NCBI GenBank assembly: GCA_025449735.1 | Contig: JANWIV010000003.1 | Location: forward strand, 248,001 to 312,000 | Length of the DNA: 64,000 nucleotides | Direction: 5' to 3' | Source of the DNA: Candidatus Microgenomates bacterium | Lineage (GTDB): Bacteria; Patescibacteriota; Microgenomatia; UBA1406; HO2-37-13b | Translations under genes and position numbers: made by a program | Part shown: positions 13,182 to 48,267 of the stretch, piece by piece | Layout: each line of letters opens with the position of its first letter | How positions within the stretch are numbered: the stretch's first letter is position 1 | Notes under the pieces: model-generated | What the model saw: only the letters and a program-made list of their open reading frames with translations | What the model was told of the DNA's origin: nothing | Database searches by the model: none

Positions 13182-14195
13182 ATGAAGTCTATTCGTGTTG
13201 GTATAAATGGATTTGGTAGAATCGGTCGTGCTTTTACTCGAATTGCGATCGAGCGAGAGACTTTTGAAATTGTTCATATCAATACTGGTAGTACTCCTCC
13301 CGAAATGCTTGCTTACTTATTAAAATATGACTCAACCTATCGCACTTTTAAAAAATCCATTAATCATAATGATAGCGGTATTGAAGTTGATGGTAAATCC
13401 ATAACCAGCTCGATTTATCGAGAGCCAGAGGCAATCCCCTGGGGACAACGCGGTGTTGATGTCGTCATTGATGCCACCGGAGCGTTCAAAACTCGAGAGG
13501 AGCTAAAAAAACATCTTCATGATGGAGTCAAAAAAGTTATACTTACTGCTCCCACGAGCGACGAAACGCTTCCTCATATTGTACTTGGTGCTAATGATGA
13601 TAGGTTTGATTTTGGGAATGCCGACATCATCTCTAATGCTTCTTGCACTACCAATTGCGCTTCACTTATGACTAGAGTGCTCGATGATCATTTCAAGATC
13701 AACTCTCTCTACCTCACCACGGTTCATGCCTATACCAGTAGTCAACAATTACTCGATAATTCCGCTGACAAACCGACTCGAGCTCGCTCCGCTGGATTAT
13801 CGATTATCCCAACCACTACCGGAGCGGCTGATGCTATCTGCAAAACCACCGCCTGTGAGATAGGGAATATTGGTGGTATGGCGCTTCGGGTACCAGTCCC
13901 GGTTGGCTCAATTTCCGATATAACGGCAGTGGTCGAGCGACATACTAATATTGAGGAAATTCATCAAGCTTTCAAGTCAGAGGCTGAAGGTCGGCTTAAG
14001 AGTCTGCTTTCTTATGAAGAGTCCCCCATTGTCTCTTCAGACTGCATCGGCACTCCTTATTCCTGCATATATGATGCTAATTACACTCAGGTATTGAATG
14101 GTAACTTTATCAAAATATTTGGCTGGTATGATAATGAATGGGGTTATTCAACTCGTCTCGTTGATCTTACGGAAATATTATCCGATCATGTATAA
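13182..14195 (+). CDS. gap: Glyceraldehyde-3-phosphate dehydrogenase, type I
   Basis: Glycolytic oxidation and phosphorylation of glyceraldehyde 3-phosphate. The Rossmann motif INGFGRIGRAF opens the protein, the catalytic cysteine is in SNASCTTNCAS (about Cys154) with its His partner in the following TTVHAYTSSQQLLD, and the C-terminal NGNFIKIFGWYDNEWGYSTR is conserved. 337 aa, full length. A CATAAT box ends eight bases before the ATG. The stop codon overlaps TATAAT (14191-14196), a possible -10 for the downstream glmS leader. Confidence 0.96.
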   Translation: MKSIRVGINGFGRIGRAFTRIAIERETFEIVHINTGSTPPEMLAYLLKYDSTYRTFKKSINHNDSGIEVDGKSITSSIYREPEAIPWGQRGVDVVIDATGAFKTREELKKHLHDGVKKVILTAPTSDETLPHIVLGANDDRFDFGNADIISNASCTTNCASLMTRVLDDHFKINSLYLTTVHAYTSSQQLLDNSADKPTRARSAGLSIIPTTTGAADAICKTTACEIGNIGGMALRVPVPVGSISDITAVVERHTNIEEIHQAFKSEAEGRLKSLLSYEESPIVSSDCIGTPYSCIYDANYTQVLNGNFIKIFGWYDNEWGYSTRLVDLTEILSDHV

Positions 14196-14196: not shown

Positions 14197-14247
14197 AAAT
14201 GTAAGCGGTGTTTTTAGTTTTCGTCAGTTGACGGATTGAAAAACAAA

Positions 14248-14397
14248 GCGTGTGGTCCTCTATAGCTAAGTGCGAAGGAGGAATACGAGGAGAGGGTTTA
14301 TCGAAATAATCTGCGGGTGCCCTCAAGGGATTAAGTACTTTTCCCTTATTTAAGCACCTCTTGAAAAATTTGAAGTAATTCAAATCACAAAAGAGGC
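14248..14397 (+). ncRNA. glmS ribozyme (glucosamine-6-phosphate-activated self-cleaving riboswitch)
   Basis: The 324-bp gap before glmS contains the full glmS ribozyme fold. The predicted cleavage is between A14247 and G14248, just before GCGTG. The P2 stem pairs TCCTC with GAGGA. The conserved core TACGAGG, then GGGTTTATCGAAAT, then GCGGGTGCCCTC runs from 14284 to 14324. P3 is GAGGG/CCCTC. P4 is AAGGGA/TCCCTT (14325-14346). P4.1 is CCTCTT/AAGAGG, enclosing ATTTGAA-GTAA-TTCAAAT with a GNRA tetraloop. All match the Bacillus-type ribozyme, where GlcN6P triggers self-cleavage and mRNA decay. The P2.2 pairing (CGTG with TGCG) would use two G-U wobbles. The remaining 120 bp up to glmS is AT-rich with no further structure that I see. 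Confidence 0.95.
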
Positions 14398-14519
14398 GCA
14401 ATAAGTATAAAACCGCTTCATTATTCTTAAATATGCTGTAATTACAGTTCACTTCTATTTTTGATATTTTTGTAGAGTTTAATTTTTAATCTTTACTTTT
14501 TAAATTTTAAATTGACCTT

Positions 14520-16283
14520 ATGTGTGGCATATTTGGTATTGTTGGGAATAAATCATTTAGTTCAAAAGCAATTCTAGAAGGTTTGCGTACTCTTGAATAT
14601 CGAGGGTATGACAGCTGGGGGGTTGCTGTTGTTTGTAACAATAAAATCGTCGTTGACCGAGAAGTCGGTAAGATCGGCAAGGCAACAATTGATCAATCGA
14701 TGACGAGCGTTGGAATTGGTCATACTCGTTGGGCGACTCATGGTGGAGTAACTAAGCAAAATGCTCATCCTCATCTTGATTGCAAGGCTCGAGTTGCAGT
14801 TGTTCACAATGGCATCATTGAAAATTATCGCTTGCTTAAATCCGGACTTAAAAATACCACTCATCAATTTAAATCAGAGACTGATACTGAAATCATTGCT
14901 CATTTGATTGAATATGAGCTTGATAAAAAGCAGGAATTCAAAGAAGCAGTACGACTTTCCTTTAATAAACTGGAAGGATCAAATGCAATCGTCGTCCTCG
15001 ATAAGTATTCCGGCCAACTAGCAATTTGTCGAAACGGCTCACCGCTTGTCATTGGACTGGGGCGAAATGCTAGTTATATAAGTAGCGATGTTACTCCTTT
15101 TCTTAAATATACAAAAAGAGTGATATTCCTTGATGACAATCAAGGAGCCGTTATTGACTCTCAACATGTATCAGTTTTCAATGTCAAAAATGGCAGGAAT
15201 GTGAAATATAAAAGTGAAATTATTAAATTAAAAAAAAGTAGCATTAACAAGGGTAAATTTCCTCATTTTCTAATCAAGGAAATATATGATCAAAATCGTA
15301 CCATTGGACAGCTAAATTCAATCAACATTAAGGAATTGGAAAAGATCATTCATCTGATTCAAAATGGCTATCGAGTAGTAATCACTGGTTGCGGCACGGC
15401 CGCTTATTGTGCTATGGCGGCAAAGTATTTTTTTGCCTCATATAACATCCCAGTAGATGTATATAGTGCTTATGAATTTGCCCCATTTGCGGACTTTATT
15501 AATGATAAAACCTTGTTTGTCGCCATTTCTCAAAGTGGTGAAACTGCCGATACTTTGCTCGCCGTAAAAACGGCAAAAAAAAGAGGGGCTCATATTGTCG
15601 CCATCGTCAATGCCGAAAGCTCAACTTTGGGTCGTCTCGCTAATACCGTAATTGCGGTGTCGGCAGGGCCAGAAATTGCGGTTGTCTCCACCAAAGCTTT
15701 CACTGCTCAACTCACTTTTTTATATCTTCTTGCCGGAGGCGTAGCAAAAAAACTCAACAAAACTCATCAGGAGATTAAAAATCTGGATATTGCTCTCAAT
15801 AAATGGCTTAATCCCAAACTTGAAGCAGAAGTGCGCAAAATTGCTAAAATAATCGCCAAGCAAAAAAGTATTTATTTGATTGGCAAAAATCTTTCTTTCA
15901 CTGCCGCCCTTGAAACCGCACTTAAAATCAAGGAAGTCAGCTATATTCATGCCGAAGCTTTTGCCTCAGGCGAACTCAAACATGGTCCAATCGCTTTGAT
16001 TGAACCGGGCACTATCTGCTTATGTCTCCTCGAAAATAACGAAGTCACCCGGGAAGTGCTTTTATCTTGTGCTGAGCTTATAAGCCGAGGAGCCATTATA
16101 ATCGGGGTCTCCCCACTCAAGAGCGAGGAATTTGATTTTTATCTGCCTGTACCAGATCTTGCTGAGCTGACAATCATCGCTCAAGTTGTGATTGGTCAAC
16201 TTTTAGGCTATTATTGTAGTGTGGAACTAAAAAATGATCCTGATAAACCAAGAAATTTAGCCAAATCAGTTACTGTCAAATAA
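14520..16283 (+). CDS. glmS: Glutamine-fructose-6-phosphate aminotransferase
   Basis: Makes glucosamine-6-phosphate from fructose-6-phosphate and glutamine, the first step to UDP-GlcNAc and peptidoglycan. The N-terminal Ntn glutaminase begins directly with catalytic Cys2 (MCGIFGIVG) and has YRGYDSWGVA, GHTRWATHG and HNGIIENY. Two SIS isomerase domains follow (VITGCGTAAYCAM, SQSGETADT, STKAFTAQL; EVSYIHAEAFASGELKHGPIALIE). The C-terminus PRNLAKSVTVK is the canonical end. 587 aa, complete. Expression is very probably feedback-controlled by the ribozyme just upstream. Confidence 0.97.
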   Translation: MCGIFGIVGNKSFSSKAILEGLRTLEYRGYDSWGVAVVCNNKIVVDREVGKIGKATIDQSMTSVGIGHTRWATHGGVTKQNAHPHLDCKARVAVVHNGIIENYRLLKSGLKNTTHQFKSETDTEIIAHLIEYELDKKQEFKEAVRLSFNKLEGSNAIVVLDKYSGQLAICRNGSPLVIGLGRNASYISSDVTPFLKYTKRVIFLDDNQGAVIDSQHVSVFNVKNGRNVKYKSEIIKLKKSSINKGKFPHFLIKEIYDQNRTIGQLNSINIKELEKIIHLIQNGYRVVITGCGTAAYCAMAAKYFFASYNIPVDVYSAYEFAPFADFINDKTLFVAISQSGETADTLLAVKTAKKRGAHIVAIVNAESSTLGRLANTVIAVSAGPEIAVVSTKAFTAQLTFLYLLAGGVAKKLNKTHQEIKNLDIALNKWLNPKLEAEVRKIAKIIAKQKSIYLIGKNLSFTAALETALKIKEVSYIHAEAFASGELKHGPIALIEPGTICLCLLENNEVTREVLLSCAELISRGAIIIGVSPLKSEEFDFYLPVPDLAELTIIAQVVIGQLLGYYCSVELKNDPDKPRNLAKSVTVK

Positions 16284-16284
16284 T

Positions 16285-16818
16285 ATGCACAATTTCTTTA
16301 TCGCCCACCCGGTAGAACAAAAAGTGAAATCAAAGGTCAAGCTAATCCAGGATCGACTTAGTAGTTTTATTCCTGAGGCAAAACTCACTAATCCAAATAA
16401 TACCCATGTGACGCTGACATTTTTCCCGCAAGTCAACCCCAAACAATTAAAAAAATTAAGGCAAATTATTAATGATCATAAAAAGGAACTGTTGAAAGTA
16501 AAGCTATACTTTGATCGAATTGACGGCTTTCCTGATATAAAAAAGGCCCAAGTACTTTATATTCATCTCGGTGGCGAGATTGGAAAATTAATGACGACCG
16601 CGGAGTCGATTCGCAATAAAGCACACTTAAATGGAATCGTCTTTGACCCCAAAACGCTAATTCCTCATTTGACTATCGCTCGACTCAAAACAAAACAAAA
16701 TTTGAGTAATTTTTCAGAATTATTTAAGCTCCCAAAAGTGGAATTTAATCTTGGAGAGCTGATCCTTTACCAAAGTTTATATACCGGTCCTGCCTCACTC
16801 TATCTCCCGATCGCCTGA
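16285..16818 (+). CDS. thpR: RNA 2',3'-cyclic phosphodiesterase (2'-5' RNA ligase family)
   Basis: 2H-phosphoesterase of 177 aa with the paired HxT motifs: HVTLTFF near residue 40 and HLTIARLK near residue 130. Family members hydrolyse 2',3'-cyclic phosphates at RNA ends. It starts one base after the glmS stop, so it is in the glmS transcript. Its 3' end overlaps the convergent 589-aa gene by 24 bases. Confidence 0.88.
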   Translation: MHNFFIAHPVEQKVKSKVKLIQDRLSSFIPEAKLTNPNNTHVTLTFFPQVNPKQLKKLRQIINDHKKELLKVKLYFDRIDGFPDIKKAQVLYIHLGGEIGKLMTTAESIRNKAHLNGIVFDPKTLIPHLTIARLKTKQNLSNFSELFKLPKVEFNLGELILYQSLYTGPASLYLPIA

Positions 16819-18564
16819 TAGCGACAAGGAATATATTTTATCCCCGGTCAAGATAAGTACCCCTTTTTCCGAAGAAACTACAAAATCAACTGTCTTTTTA
16901 AGTATCCCAGAGGATAGTTGCCTCTCATACTCGCCTTCCTTGTTGAAAATAAATAGACGTCCTGAATCCTTATCAATTAAATAAAGGCTTTCAACGTCAG
17001 CGTCAGTAAAGAGAAACTCAAACTCAACTGACGGCTCAGGCGACGCAAGAGTAAAACCATCGTTTAGTCCAGAGGTAAATCGAGACACTCCTGAGCTTGA
17101 TAGCACATAGACTGATGAATCAATTGATAGCTGTTTAGCTCCTGATAAATCAGCGTCACTTGACTTAAGATAGGCAGAAGGGGAAGAGAAACCATCCTCG
17201 GCCCCGGTATATTTATTTATCGCTCCACCCTGGTCAAGCAAATAAATATTACCATTGTACATTGCCATATCAATTGCGGTTTTGAAATGGTCATCACTCC
17301 CTGCTTTGCGCATCAGGCTTCCCTTACCATCTTCAATTTTATAAATACCATCTTTGGTATTGATATAAAAAATATCTCCTTGAGAAAGAACCGCATGGGA
17401 GGCATTTTTTATTGTTGAGCCAGCGACCGTATCAGTGGCCTTTTTTTCAATTGAAAGGCTATAAATTGCACTATCTTTTTTACTAAGCATAACCATTTCA
17501 TCTTGCTCCTTATAAATCTCACTTGCGGTTGCCCCTTTCTTGACAAGATCGAGGTCAAAAAATTCTTCTGCCTTGACTTCTTTTTCTCGCTTAATCTCAG
17601 ACGCCTTACTCTCGACTTTATGGGCGATTTCATCAACTCCTTTTATGTCTTCGCCTTCGGTTTTCTTTTTCAACTCCTCAACTGAAGCCTTTGCTTCTTC
17701 AAGCAGTGAAAGCGATTTGTCAGTATTTAAGCCAAATAGTCCCTCTGCTTCTTCCAACTTATTTTCAATTGCGACTATTTGAGTATCAACTTCTTCTTGC
17801 AACTTATCATGCCGGCGCCTTTCAACTCCAAAAACTACACTGTAAAGCAGAACCACAACAAGAATAACAAGAATACCGCCAGTTAACATTTTGTTTCCTT
17901 CGTTCAATGGTTTGAGACGATTCGTTAGGCTTGAGAAAGTGTCTTTACTAAGTTTTGACTGAGACTCTTCATAAACTCCCGACTCATCGCTAGCCTCTTC
18001 AGAAACAATAGCATTGATCTCTTTTTCCGCGTTTACCGTTACTAGTATAGCGATGATCCCCGCATCATCATTCTTTTTTAATTCTGCAGCCAACATTTCC
18101 ACCGATGCTTTTGGAGATGGGTTATCGAGAGATAAAAGTAGTGCTTCTTGATCAATATTTTCCTCAAGACTACTATTGGTAAAAATATAAAAGTCACCAT
18201 CTTTTACCTCTCCTGACGCTGATGAATCTTGAGAAATTATTTGTTTAATTTGGTCTCCTCGTTTTAACAAAATTACCCCTGAACCACGCGTCAACAAATA
18301 CATAACGCCGTCGACAAAAAAACCAGCGGCACAAGTGGTATCCAATGACTCAAGATTATTATCAATAAGCTCGATACACTGCTCTAAAGTCTGAGGGGGA
18401 TCTTGTGCCAGCGTTTCCTTGATCGATTTTAAAGTGCTCACTATTGCCTCTTTATTCTCCTTTAAGCCAGAAATGCTTAAGAAAAATCTGTCTTGCATGA
18501 TAAATTCATCGGAAATTTTTTCTGTTTCCTTACCTAAATAGATGGCGTAGTCAGTCTTTAACAT
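16795..18564 (-). CDS. Membrane protein: degenerate PPM/PP2C-like domain, TM helix, coiled coil, beta-propeller-like domain
   Basis: 589 aa. The N-terminal 190 residues resemble a PP2C-type phosphatase (ISGLKENKEAIV, LTRGSGVILLKRGD, VKDGDFYIFTNSSLEENI, DDAGIIAILV), but most metal-binding aspartates are missing, so catalysis is doubtful. One helix (GGILVILVVVLLYSVVFG, about residue 230) follows, then a Glu/Lys-rich coiled coil to about 340. The C-terminal 240 residues have repeated short hydrophobic strands with Asp/Gly turns (for example NGNIYLLDQGG, SVYVLSSSGVSRF, SLYLIDKDSGRLFIF) resembling beta-propeller blades. The topology suggests a cytoplasmic sensing head and an outside propeller. It lies with two membrane genes downstream of the 5S rRNA gene. 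No specific family assigned. Confidence 0.72.
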   Translation of the reverse strand: MLKTDYAIYLGKETEKISDEFIMQDRFFLSISGLKENKEAIVSTLKSIKETLAQDPPQTLEQCIELIDNNLESLDTTCAAGFFVDGVMYLLTRGSGVILLKRGDQIKQIISQDSSASGEVKDGDFYIFTNSSLEENIDQEALLLSLDNPSPKASVEMLAAELKKNDDAGIIAILVTVNAEKEINAIVSEEASDESGVYEESQSKLSKDTFSSLTNRLKPLNEGNKMLTGGILVILVVVLLYSVVFGVERRRHDKLQEEVDTQIVAIENKLEEAEGLFGLNTDKSLSLLEEAKASVEELKKKTEGEDIKGVDEIAHKVESKASEIKREKEVKAEEFFDLDLVKKGATASEIYKEQDEMVMLSKKDSAIYSLSIEKKATDTVAGSTIKNASHAVLSQGDIFYINTKDGIYKIEDGKGSLMRKAGSDDHFKTAIDMAMYNGNIYLLDQGGAINKYTGAEDGFSSPSAYLKSSDADLSGAKQLSIDSSVYVLSSSGVSRFTSGLNDGFTLASPEPSVEFEFLFTDADVESLYLIDKDSGRLFIFNKEGEYERQLSSGILKKTVDFVVSSEKGVLILTGDKIYSLSLSGDREIE

Positions 18565-19392: not shown

Positions 19393-19515
19393 TGCCCTGG
19401 CAACGACCTATTGTCCCCTCCGCTTTTTGCAAGGAGTATCGTCGGCGCTGGTTTGTTTCACGACTCTGTTCGAAATGATAAGAGGTGGTTCCAAACCGCT
19501 CTAGCCACCAAGGCA
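19393..19515 (-). rRNA. rrf: 5S ribosomal RNA, solitary gene
   Basis: The minus strand begins TGCCTTGGTGGCTAGAGCG and ends GGTCGTTGCCAGGGCA. The terminal 8-bp helix I forms (TGCCTTGG with CCAGGGCA, one G-U pair). The internal landmarks GGAACCACC, CATTTCGAACAG, GTGAAAC and CAGCGCCGACGATACTCC match 5S loops B, C and E. Length about 123 nt. A run of eight T follows the 3' end, giving helix I plus T-run a terminator look. No 23S or 16S sequence is adjacent; rpsA lies upstream. Confidence 0.93.
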
Positions 19516-26023: not shown

Positions 26024-27949
26024 ATGTCTGAAGGATCAAGCGCAATCGAATTACCAAACCAAGGAATTCAAACTGGGGTTAATCTGCCCCTGACTCAAGA
26101 TGGACCACAAGATCAAAAAATCCTACCTATTCTTTCGCGCCTAGAGAGGCATATTGAGCCAATAGATAATTCACTTGAGTCTCAAATAAAAGAACAGCTT
26201 AGCTTATTAAAACCAGAAATTATAATTACCGATGATGGCATTACAAGACACATCTATACCTTTACGCGTGAAGGAAGAGAGATAAAAGTTATGTTTTATC
26301 CGTCTAATGAACTTCCAGTGTCGGAGGCTTTTTTTCGAGGAAAAAGATTGCATGTAATTGGTGATAAACCAGGTTGGCGGACTGATGATGATTGGGATGC
26401 TTACGTTACAAGATTGCAAGAACTTAATTCCCCAACAGCTCGTAGACCCGGAGAAGACTTAATAAATCCAACTAACTTTTACGCTGATGATCCTGCTCGA
26501 GTAGAGGAAACACTGATACTTGTCGAGCAAAATCCTCGTGCCTTAGTTGATCTAGCTCTTGCCACTGCAAACGGCGACACAAAAGATTTAGAGCAAACTC
26601 GCAAATTACTTGCCGATCATAAAACCACATCTGAAATAGATCTTCTCATTGATAGCATAATCGCAAGTAAAATACTTGATAATGATGGTCATTACCGCCA
26701 ACCTGACCCTTCAGACACCTCTGGCGAAGCGCTTGCAGTATTGGCGCTTCAAGGAGAAATAGAAGCCCGAAAAGTTTTAGATTTGAAACAAAAACAACTG
26801 GCGACATATGATAATGAACAACAAATAGTAGAGAATAACCAACTAGTGGAACTTAATCCTGATGATAAAAAAGTCCTTAATGTTTTGTCATCAATACATG
26901 TTACGCGATATTTACCAACAGAAAGCGCTGATGGAGATTACTGGGAGATCCCGACCACATTCGATGCCAATCCGAATGATAGAATCCCTCGATTGACGTG
27001 GCATACTACCTTACAGCAAAGAACCGGAGAAAATGCAATGGCTATGGGTAGCACTAAATTTGCCGGTACCCCCTATGCTTTAATTACACGATTTGGCTCA
27101 CTAATCGAAGCCAATGGCAAACCACTTTCATCATCGCCTGAAGATACTTTTTTTGAGATTTCTCCAGGAAGAAAAGTGAGAATCCCCAAAGAAGACGCGG
27201 TTTTGGTCAGACCCGGGAATCCAACAGAACTAGGAGCAATATTTGAGCGTCGAGGTGAGCAACATGAAGTCGTATATAAACATACCGAATTTACCCCACA
27301 GGATATAAAGAAAATTTACGGGGCTGGAGATAATTATCACGATGACATAAAATTAAAAGAAGCTTTTTTTCGTGCATTACGTGGTAAAGACAATCAATTT
27401 GAAATTCCCAATGAAGATGTTCGCACAATTGTTGAGCAAATGGGAGGTCTGATGTTTGACGAAAACGGGCAGCCGCCACAAGTTAGTTTTGATAATGGTA
27501 AACGGGTTGATAGTCGCAGCTTGATTAGCGAGTTAAGTACATCAACTTTAGAAGACGTTATAGAGACTTATTTGCCCAAAGCTAAATTTCCTGGGTCAAA
27601 TGGTGAACAATTAAGAGGAAGATTAACTGAAATCTTACAAGGTAAAATCGGCTCTAAAGCAAAAGATCTGGCGATGGATTCAGTTGTTGAAGAATATAGA
27701 AATGGAACTGATATTACCAATGATCCTAGTTTGAAAAGAGCCTTTAACCAACTTCATGTAGAAAATTTAGGAACGCCAGGACACTCGAACAGCGATTGGG
27801 GACACCTTGAGTCAGCAATGATAAGAGAACTTAATTCTTTACTTGAAGGAATAGTTGATCAACAAGTTTTTCATAATGATAAAAGCAATGATATAAATAG
27901 ACTAAGTCCTGCAATGCGTAAGATGTATTACTATTTGGGACTTTTATAA
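26024..27949 (+). CDS. Hypothetical 641-aa protein
   Basis: Large soluble protein with no signal peptide or membrane helix. It is rich in charged residues, Asp, Glu, Asn and Pro. Some stretches suggest alpha-helical repeats (ARVEETLILVEQNPRALVDLALATANGD) and a compact beta region (TRLTWHTTLQQRTGENAMAMGSTKFAGTPYALITRFG). No catalytic signature or family recognised. A TATACT box lies 16 bases before the ATG. The gene is followed by a hairpin terminator. Confidence 0.65.
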   Translation: MSEGSSAIELPNQGIQTGVNLPLTQDGPQDQKILPILSRLERHIEPIDNSLESQIKEQLSLLKPEIIITDDGITRHIYTFTREGREIKVMFYPSNELPVSEAFFRGKRLHVIGDKPGWRTDDDWDAYVTRLQELNSPTARRPGEDLINPTNFYADDPARVEETLILVEQNPRALVDLALATANGDTKDLEQTRKLLADHKTTSEIDLLIDSIIASKILDNDGHYRQPDPSDTSGEALAVLALQGEIEARKVLDLKQKQLATYDNEQQIVENNQLVELNPDDKKVLNVLSSIHVTRYLPTESADGDYWEIPTTFDANPNDRIPRLTWHTTLQQRTGENAMAMGSTKFAGTPYALITRFGSLIEANGKPLSSSPEDTFFEISPGRKVRIPKEDAVLVRPGNPTELGAIFERRGEQHEVVYKHTEFTPQDIKKIYGAGDNYHDDIKLKEAFFRALRGKDNQFEIPNEDVRTIVEQMGGLMFDENGQPPQVSFDNGKRVDSRSLISELSTSTLEDVIETYLPKAKFPGSNGEQLRGRLTEILQGKIGSKAKDLAMDSVVEEYRNGTDITNDPSLKRAFNQLHVENLGTPGHSNSDWGHLESAMIRELNSLLEGIVDQQVFHNDKSNDINRLSPAMRKMYYYLGLL

Positions 27950-33008: not shown

Positions 33009-33377
33009 GGGGGTGATGGGTATCGACAGGATGCACATCTTTTAAATGGTGAGAGCGGACCTATCCGAGAAATAGGAAAAAATAAAAGCAAGAAATAAAC
33101 TTGCCTTTGCTCCACAGCTTGCGTATTCGTACGTAAACTAAGGACGCTCTGTCAAATAAGTTTTGCTCAGTTCAACTTTACTGACGGAATAAACCAACCG
33201 TGTCCGACAGACGAAAGAAAGAACGATCGTTTTTTGTCCGTCGTTAAAAAAATAGGATCGATATTCTAGATGAGAGTCCGATTGTTACTCGTCTAGAGCA
33301 CAAAAAAACAATCTAACTCTTACTAAACATTTTCAAGATAACCATTTTGGACGGGGGTTCAACTCCCCCCACCTCCA
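33009..33377 (+). ncRNA. ssrA: Transfer-messenger RNA
   Basis: Rescues stalled ribosomes together with SmpB. The 5' end GGGGGTGATGGGTATCGACAGG and the 3' end (T-arm GGGGGTTCAACTCCCCC, then CACCTCC and discriminator A) form the tRNA-like domain; the acceptor pairs GGGGGTG with CACCTCC, one G-U pair. CCA is not encoded. A resume codon GCA at 33088 would open the frame ARNKLAFAPQLAYSYVN ending at TAA 33139-33141, partly within a UUCG-loop hairpin. This tag is tentative since it lacks the usual hydrophobic Ala-Ala end. One-piece form, about 369 nt. Confidence 0.95.
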
Positions 33378-33396
33378 CATGGATTATTATAACAAT

Positions 33397-45061: not shown

Positions 45062-45865
45062 ATGGACCGCCATCCAATTCCTAGGCAAATCACTACTTTT
45101 CAGTTTAAACTGATTGGTTTTTTAACCGTTAAGCAATTCGCTTATCTCTTGGCAACAACTGGGCTGACAATAACTATCTATTTCCTAATTCCAGTGCCAA
45201 TTATTAATATTGTCTTTGCCGGTCTTATTGGGGCGATTGGAGCGGCATTTTCTTTGTTGACTTATAATGACCGCTCTTTTGATATTTGGCTTAAAAATCT
45301 GGCATTGGCCATTCTCAACCCGTCACAATATCATTATATTAAAAAAAATCTACCTCCCGCTTTTTTGCAGGGAGTTTTTATTTATTCACCGGCTGTCGTC
45401 AGCACCCATGTCGATGCTAATAATAAGTTGGCTTCGTACATCGGGCAAAGCGCTACAGGGAGTGTTTCTAACGAAGGAGATAGAATTCACCAGCTTTTTT
45501 CAGAGCCGAATGAGCCAATGATGAAAATGACTACTCCTGGCCTAAATATCAATGCCGACGCCACGTCTCCAACAAGCGCTGTCTCAAATTTGCCTCAAGC
45601 CTTTATTTCCGGCATTGTGTCAGGAAATGAGGGGAAAACACTACCAGGAATTATGATTTATATAAAGACCGACTTGGGAAATGTTACTAGAATACTAAAA
45701 ACCAATACTCATGGTGTTTTTGCTTCATTTCATAGCTTAAGCAATGGCAACTACACAATCGAAAGCAAGGATTTAAGCGGTAAATATTTATTTGATACAA
45801 TGAAAGTTACGCTAACTGGTCAAAAAAATGAGCCATTTTATATAAACGCCAAAAAATCATTATGA
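45062..45865 (+). CDS. PrgI family membrane protein with C-terminal carboxypeptidase-regulatory-like domain
   Basis: 267 aa. The N-terminal half (MDRHPIPRQITTFQFKLIGFLTVKQFAYLLA, two helices, then SFDIWLKNLALAILNPSQYHY) is PrgI-like, a component of conjugative type IV secretion found in Gram-positives and CPR bacteria. The C-terminal part (AFISGIVSGNEGKTLPGIMIYIKTD, NGNYTIESKD) looks like a carboxypeptidase-regulatory (transthyretin-like) beta domain. First gene of a three-gene operon with the next two; a TATACT box ends eight bases upstream. Confidence 0.82.
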   Translation: MDRHPIPRQITTFQFKLIGFLTVKQFAYLLATTGLTITIYFLIPVPIINIVFAGLIGAIGAAFSLLTYNDRSFDIWLKNLALAILNPSQYHYIKKNLPPAFLQGVFIYSPAVVSTHVDANNKLASYIGQSATGSVSNEGDRIHQLFSEPNEPMMKMTTPGLNINADATSPTSAVSNLPQAFISGIVSGNEGKTLPGIMIYIKTDLGNVTRILKTNTHGVFASFHSLSNGNYTIESKDLSGKYLFDTMKVTLTGQKNEPFYINAKKSL

Positions 45866-46518: not shown

Positions 46519-48267
46519 ATGGCTTTATTCGGAGGCAAACAGAAACAAAATGCTAAACAAGGGCAGGAAAGCGCCGGTTCATTACTGTCGCCGGGAATGG
46601 TTTCGATTCGCGATTTGATCGCGCCTTCTTATATCGAGGTTGATTTTAATCATATAAAAATTGACGACCGGCTTTACCGGACTTTTTTTGTTGTAGGTTA
46701 TCCGAGGTTTGTTTCTTCAAATTGGCTTGCCCCACTGATAACTTTTGACCATCCTCTTTTTATCTCGATGTACGTCTATCCAACACAATCAAATAAAATT
46801 TTGCATGATTTAAAACAGAAAATTGCTGAAATGGAGGCAACGATTGAGACCGATATTAAAGCAGGAAAAGTCGTTGATCCAACGGTGCAGGTCTCACTTG
46901 ATGATGCTTTAATGCTCCAGGCAGAGCTTGCCGCTGGCTCAGAAAGGTTCTTCCAATTTGGATTATATGTGACAGTCCCGGCCGATACCCAACAAGAACT
47001 CGACACCGCTTCAAAAGAAGTTGAGTCGCTACTTTCCTCTTTGCTTATTGTTAGCAAAAAGGCGTCGCTTGAGATGGAGAGTGGTTTCAAGTCGACATTG
47101 CCGATGTTTAAAGACAATCTTAAAGTGTGGCGCAATATGGACACCACCAGTCTCGCCACCACCTTTCCTTTTATCACCGCTTCGCTGTCAGCTAATGAAG
47201 GGATTCTCTATGGTGTCAATCAACATGATGGCAGTCTAGTTATTTTTGACCGTTTTGGACTGGAATCAGCTAATTCAATAATTTTGGGTAAATCAGGTGG
47301 TGGGAAAAGTTTTTTTGTGAAGATGGAGACTTTGCGCTTGCTCTTGATGGATATTGATGTCCTTATTATCGATCCTGAGAATGAGTATAAAAATATCACC
47401 AAAGCGGTCGGTGGCGAGTTTGTCTCTTTTTCTCTCTCATCGGAATTTAAAATTAACCCTTTCGAGCTGGCGGTGGAGAATCCTGAGCCTGATGAGCTAG
47501 CAAACAAAATCCTAAGCCTCCACTCACTAATGAAGGTGATTATGGGAGAACTCTCCCCGTCACAAGAAGCCCTACTCGACAGAGCGCTCGTTGCTGCATA
47601 TAAATCAAGGGGGATCACCCCGGATCCGAAAACATTTGTTAATGCCCCACCACTTCTTGAGGATTTGTATAAGGTATTTTTGGGCTTTGAGACTGAAGAG
47701 GCGGCGGAGTTAGCCGCACGACTAGAAACTTTTGTTAAGGGCTCAGCCGCTGGAGTCTTCAATCAGCAATCTAATTTTGATATTACTAACAAATTTACGG
47801 TTTTTGGCATTCGCGATGTTGAGGAAAGCCTTCGCCCGGTAGTCATGTATATTGTTCTTGATTATGTTTGGAACCGGATCAGAAGAGATCGAAAAAAGCG
47901 AGTACTTGTGGTTGATGAGGCATGGTATCTAATCAAGCATAAAGACTCCGCTAAATATCTCTATGGATTTGCTAAAAGGGCTCGAAAATATCAACTAGGA
48001 CTAACAACAATAACCCAGGACGTTGAAGACTTCTTAAATGTAGAAGAAGGTCGAGCGATTCTTACCAATTCTAGTTTGCAGATATTATTAAAACAATCAA
48101 CAGCAGCAATTGATAAAATTGCCGAAATCTTCAATATTACTGGTGGCGAAAAACACTTCCTTCTCTCCTCAGGTGTTGGTGAAGGGCTTTTTTTTGCCGG
48201 TCACTCTCATGTCGCTATAAAAATTATTGCCAGTGAAGAAGAGCACGGTCTTATAACCCAGGTTTGA
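46519..48267 (+). CDS. VirB4/TraC-like secretion ATPase
   Basis: 582 aa. An N-terminal VirB4-like domain (LIAPSYIEVDFNHIKIDDRLYRTFFVVGYP) precedes the HerA-FtsK type motor: Walker A ILGKSGGGKSFFVKM near residue 255, DVLIIDPENEY, Walker B RVLVVDEAWYLIKH and ITQDVEDFL. It powers type IV secretion or conjugative pili elsewhere. With PrgI it forms a minimal core. No relaxase, coupling protein or VirB6-like gene lies in the window. Confidence 0.88.
   Translation: MALFGGKQKQNAKQGQESAGSLLSPGMVSIRDLIAPSYIEVDFNHIKIDDRLYRTFFVVGYPRFVSSNWLAPLITFDHPLFISMYVYPTQSNKILHDLKQKIAEMEATIETDIKAGKVVDPTVQVSLDDALMLQAELAAGSERFFQFGLYVTVPADTQQELDTASKEVESLLSSLLIVSKKASLEMESGFKSTLPMFKDNLKVWRNMDTTSLATTFPFITASLSANEGILYGVNQHDGSLVIFDRFGLESANSIILGKSGGGKSFFVKMETLRLLLMDIDVLIIDPENEYKNITKAVGGEFVSFSLSSEFKINPFELAVENPEPDELANKILSLHSLMKVIMGELSPSQEALLDRALVAAYKSRGITPDPKTFVNAPPLLEDLYKVFLGFETEEAAELAARLETFVKGSAAGVFNQQSNFDITNKFTVFGIRDVEESLRPVVMYIVLDYVWNRIRRDRKKRVLVVDEAWYLIKHKDSAKYLYGFAKRARKYQLGLTTITQDVEDFLNVEEGRAILTNSSLQILLKQSTAAIDKIAEIFNITGGEKHFLLSSGVGEGLFFAGHSHVAIKIIASEEEHGLITQV

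Follow-up and report, generated by a model that had tools for sequence, protein, structure and literature searches.

The window, a stretch of 64,000 nucleotides from the reduced, 0.82-Mb genome of a candidate Microgenomates bacterium, contains a run of forward-strand features around the gene glmS. From 5' to 3', these are gap (encoding GAPDH; 13182-14195, +), a glmS ribozyme (14236-14409, +), glmS itself (14520-16283, +), which codes for a glutamine--fructose-6-phosphate transaminase (isomerizing) of 587 aa (TIGR01135, 607 bits; cut-off 418), and, directly after it, thpR (16285-16818, +; TIGR02258, 81.8 bits), a gene for an RNA 2',3'-cyclic phosphodiesterase. The gap-ribozyme-glmS order is also found in a relative from the same family (G004), and a search for a promoter-like site between gap and the ribozyme found none. 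As a 2',3'-cyclic phosphate is expected on the 5' cleavage product, thpR was considered as a functional partner of the ribozyme; it does not adjoin glmS in the relatives checked, and we regard its position here as a coincidence. The assignment of the host to the CPR, made earlier from the letters of the sequence, was borne out by its classification: the class includes Gottesmanbacteria, which NCBI places in the Patescibacteria group, Microgenomates group. The organism is a tiny, probably host-dependent bacterium.

Elsewhere in the window, a gene for a PrgI-family protein (45062-45865, +) is followed by one further ORF and then by a VirB4-like conjugal-transfer ATPase (46519-48267, +; NF045971, over the cut-off). 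A tmRNA gene lies at 33009-33380 (+), for which ARAGORN gives the tag ERKNDRFLSVVKKIGSIF; this is unlike the usual tags, and the reading frame may be miscalled. The window also holds a 5S rRNA gene (19395-19512, -), with no match to 16S or 23S rRNA anywhere along its length, and two large ORFs without a Pfam or NCBIfam match (16795-18564, -, 589 aa; 26024-27949, +, 641 aa).

An Infernal search with the RF00234 (glmS ribozyme) model, which the initial annotation had proposed as a check, gave a match over the full length of the model (positions 1-167 of 167; cmscan, Rfam 15) at 14236-14409 (+), scoring 75.1 bits (E 2e-15) against a curated gathering score of 37. It is the only RF00234 match in the whole genome. 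The active-site letters are present, including A(-1), G1, C2, the general-base G of ACGAGG and the C2-G56 pair, and the element was rightly called a complete glmS ribozyme. It sits in the 5' leader of glmS, whose start lies 110 nt after the end of the model match and 122 nt after the end given in the initial annotation, in keeping with the spacing of about 120 bp reported there. A chance or convergent resemblance to the model is already refuted by the E-value of a full-length match, found before glmS in dozens of relatives, and its probability is negligible.

All parts of the known fold can be drawn on the window copy (forward strand throughout; position numbering after PMC7125110 and PMC11602151). 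Alignment to the RF00234 model puts the predicted cleavage site between A(-1) and G1, at 14247/14248. The 5' strand of P2.2 (C2 G3 U4 G5; 14249-14252) pairs with the 3' strand U53 G54 C55 G56 (14312-14315) through two Watson-Crick pairs, C14249-G14315 and G14250-C14314, and two wobbles, T14251.G14313 and G14252.T14312, with T14253 (U6) bulged. The P1 hairpin follows at 14256-14282 (14256-14261 with 14277-14282), as seen from the sequence and the Rfam alignment. The three core words listed initially were all located, TACGAGG at 14284-14290, GGGTTTATCGAAA at 14294-14306 and GCGGGTGCCC at 14313-14322; the first T of TACGAGG does not belong to the invariant part, as 59 of 62 Bacillota ribozymes have G before ACGAGG, and 41 of 70 from Patescibacteria have T. 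Within ACGAGG (14285-14290), mapping from PMC11602151 identifies A27, the 5' strand of P2.1 (C28-A30; 14286-14288) and G14290, the homologue of the general base known as G40 in Tte and G42 in Bsu (PMC11602151). The 3' strand of P2.1, UCG (43-45; 14301-14303), placed from the sequence and PMC7125110, completes the double pseudoknot with P2.2 through the pairs C14286-G14303 (C28-G45), G14287-C14302 (G29-C44) and A14288-T14301 (A30-U43). P2 is formed by GAGGG (14292-14296) and CCCUC (14320-14324).

Downstream of this core, the P3 hairpin occupies 14325-14347 (14325-14330 with 14342-14347; Rfam alignment, with most of P3 also in the MFE fold). P4 (14354-14399) contains a purine (A-rich) internal loop (14363-14367 / 14386-14390) and a distal stem (14368-14374/14379-14385) capped by the GNRA loop GUAA (14375-14378), all three seen in both the Rfam alignment and the MFE fold. 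P1, P2, P2.1, P2.2, P3, P4 and the GUAA-capped stem can be drawn, and to these we add P3.1, a pseudoknot that the initial annotation had left unlisted, in which GUACUU in L3 (14335-14340) pairs with AAGUAU (14403-14408). When own and cross pairings were compared, the complementarity of each L3 to its own 3' tail exceeded that in all 2000 permutations, in Patescibacteria and Bacillota alike. Because P3.1 reaches to 14408, the ribozyme ends at about 14409 and not at 14397. The fold z-score of the RNA is -3.66, a value from a single-strand MFE fold, by a method blind to pseudoknots.

We then compared 70 patescibacterial with 62 Bacillota ribozymes. The script used to align the patescibacterial rows requires a GCG start and a CGA...CGG core; G1C2G3 is found in 70/70 of these rows, and, because the script asks for these letters, the conservation of GCG and of CGA...CGG is partly by construction. 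ACGAGG as a whole is present in 69 of the 70, and A(-1) in 65. Two ribozymes from separate lineages, L005 (G004) and L241 (G660), have AGCGA in place of AUCGA in the 3' strand of P2.1, so that A30 would face G43.

The patescibacterial ribozymes depart from those of the Bacillota in P2.2. C4-G54 and C5-G53 are both present in 59 of the 62 Bacillota ribozymes, whereas C5-G53 occurs in 0/70 from Patescibacteria; the window copy, with U4.G54 and G5.U53, falls outside this Bacillota-type subfamily. Its two G-U wobbles had been noticed earlier and are real, but they are not the unusual variant they were taken for: the same double wobble is the commonest state in the phylum (33/70). Other patescibacterial ribozymes combine U4-A54 with G5.U53 or A5-U53, and a further 23 of the 70 cannot pair in the canonical register and could do so only when the bulge sits at position 5 (U4.G54 with U6-A53, for example) or at position 4 (C5-G54 with U6-A53). 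Because position 6 is nearly always U, the U6-A53 pairing by itself is weak evidence. Taken over the whole set, a P2.2 of four pairs and one bulge can be formed in 68/70, compared with 57.8/70 expected, and a maximum of 65 in 5000 trials, when 5' letters are shuffled against 3' letters. Among the distinct combinations of P2.2 letters, 14/16 can pair where 9.3 are expected (p 0.0012). To handle relatedness, changes were followed on the GlmS tree, which shows 11 U/A switches at position 53. Of 10 independent pairs, 5-7 (mean 6.5) have G at position 5 changing in step with position 53, and none has it changing in the opposite direction (median p 0.031). The pairing covaries across the phylum.

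A second patescibacterial feature is a long core joint, seen in 41/70 ribozymes; the joint of the window copy is short. Two extra covarying stems surround P2.1 in the 24 long-core ribozymes that were aligned, and neither is present in the window copy. For the long-core type, RNAalifold recovered P2.2, P1 and both extra stems unaided, with two-sided changes at 17/21 pairs. The covariation was 0.658, whereas shuffled versions gave 0.224 and slid versions no more than 0.36. A link between core length and the state of position 53 was sought on the GlmS tree and none was seen.

Andreasson et al. inferred P2.2 helices with a shifted bulge from in-vitro double-mutant rescue and proposed that positions 4, 5, 6 and 53 covary (PMC7125110). 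The patescibacterial set follows this proposal in nature, and its phylum-wide exchange of P2.2 pairs offers natural variants for the moving-bulge hypothesis at these positions (PMC7125110). We give an even chance to the proposal that Patescibacteria share a glmS ribozyme subfamily of their own, in which G5.U53 (or A-U) takes the place of C5-G53, or the helix has its bulge at position 5 or 4 and not at 6, often together with the two extra core stems; this would be a natural version of the shifted bulge.

In the consensus core construct, a change at position 5 or 53 costs about 1000-fold on average (PMC7125110), and a double-wobble P2.2 could therefore be slow unless other letters compensate. 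This cost, together with the two wobbles in a row in the window copy, would fit a relic or a non-cleaving GlcN6P aptamer, in which the fold is kept and a weak P2.2 makes cleavage too slow to matter. We consider this unlikely, since the double wobble is kept in so many relatives and covaries across the phylum, and since C2, G3, ACGAGG and A(-1) are conserved, letters that decay would not hold across divergent families.

The re-paired version is widespread in the group to which the host belongs. With the Rfam model, ribozymes were found in 21/57 of the nearest genomes, 25/83 genomes of the order, 51/373 of the class (43 over the cut-off) and 23/380 of the phylum, and in 78/119 genomes of a Bacillota sample. 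With a model of our own (R1), derived from long-core ribozymes of Patescibacteria, the count for the class rose to 61/373, with the proviso that the ribozymes used to train R1 and a further model, R2, include members of genomes later searched and that their E-values are rough. In 69 of the 70 alignable patescibacterial cases, glmS starts 15-159 nt after the Rfam match. Ten R1 matches unlisted by Rfam were examined, and all ten have glmS 92-191 nt after the match; one, from Candidatus Gottesmanbacteria RBG_16_52_11 (L109), scores 36.8 bits with the Rfam model, just below the cut-off, and we therefore conclude that Rfam undercounts patescibacterial ribozymes. L109, L079 (G020) and L026 (G031) are all clear ribozymes before glmS that lie below or outside the Rfam threshold. 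A sub-threshold match in G191, with no glmS start after it, and the single new match found by R2 only, in G859 and likewise without glmS, were dropped. In G003, which has the GlmS closest to that of the window, the contig begins inside glmS; some absences of the ribozyme are assembly breaks or missed ribozymes.

One ribozyme-less glmS, in a member of the same family (L045 of G002), has right before its ATG a purine-rich and then a pyrimidine-rich, roughly complementary stretch (1320-1490). It is matched by miRNA-precursor models on both strands and is possibly a long imperfect hairpin; a search within it for an inverted repeat of at least 20 bases found none.

The initial annotation had allowed for a transfer of the ribozyme together with glmS, and the high frequency of the ribozyme in Bacillota, from which it is best known, and its patchy occurrence in the window's class would suit a recent horizontal gain of both from that phylum. 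A tree of 165 GlmS proteins (FastTree, local supports) does not support such a gain: the window GlmS groups with those of two members of its family, G003 and G004, in a starred patescibacterial clade of 32 rows, which mixes ribozyme-bearing and ribozyme-lacking members, while the Bacillota proteins lie elsewhere. With a P2.2 unlike that of every Bacillota ribozyme compared, and a gap-ribozyme-glmS order common to the window and its same-family relative, we hold a recent Bacillota origin to be very improbable. The history of the ribozyme in Patescibacteria may instead be one of an old gain with many losses, or of exchange within the phylum.

Taking these lines of evidence together, we propose, with a probability of roughly 0.87, that the window element would act as a patescibacterial glmS ribozyme-riboswitch, turning glmS down through GlcN6P-dependent cleavage and RNase J decay. 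In this bacterium, GlcN6P would bind a preformed pocket and serve as cofactor for a cut between A14247 and G14248. The helix holding this site, P2.2, is predicted to consist of C2-G56, G3-C55, U4.G54 and G5.U53, the last two being wobbles, and to leave U6 bulged. The 3' product, bearing a 5'-OH, would be degraded by RNase J, so that high GlcN6P would lower glmS expression; in B. subtilis, the glmS fragment left with a 5'-OH by GlcN6P-driven cleavage is broken down by RNase J1 (PMC3997798). An RNase J gene is present in the same genome (G000:C4:16627-18270; 464.8 bits, cut-off 400), although control genomes show that such genes are likewise common among organisms lacking the ribozyme. By this route the cell would sense its own GlcN6P.

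These findings place a metabolite-sensing ribozyme in a phylum with very small genomes, and suggest that such cells regulate an amino-sugar supply of their own and do not depend solely on uptake from a host. If the proposed subfamily is real, its re-paired P2.2 could give a different response to GlcN6P in cells that perhaps obtain amino sugars from a host. Riboswitches have been proposed as gene-control tools for Patescibacteria (PMC11665869), and a native, ligand-driven switch could serve as one. A search of the open-access literature found no account of glmS ribozymes in Patescibacteria or CPR bacteria; most subscription journals lie outside that search, and the Rfam full set may list members.

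Among known systems, glmS ribozymes whose core carries additional stems were reportedly described by McCown et al. in 2011 from Deinococcus-Thermus. The patescibacterial long-core copies, with their extra core stems, may be akin to these, and the window copy, with its short joint and no such stems, differs from them. Another counterpart is the Bacillota glmS ribozyme (RF00234; B. subtilis, T. tengcongensis), with which the window copy shares the core double pseudoknot P2/P2.1/P2.2, the A(-1)/G1 site, ACGAGG with its general base, P3/P3.1, P4 with a GNRA loop and the position before glmS. The two differ in the letter before ACGAGG, which is G there and U in the window, and in P2.2, where C4-G54 and C5-G53 of the Bacillota ribozyme give way to U4.G54 and G5.U53.
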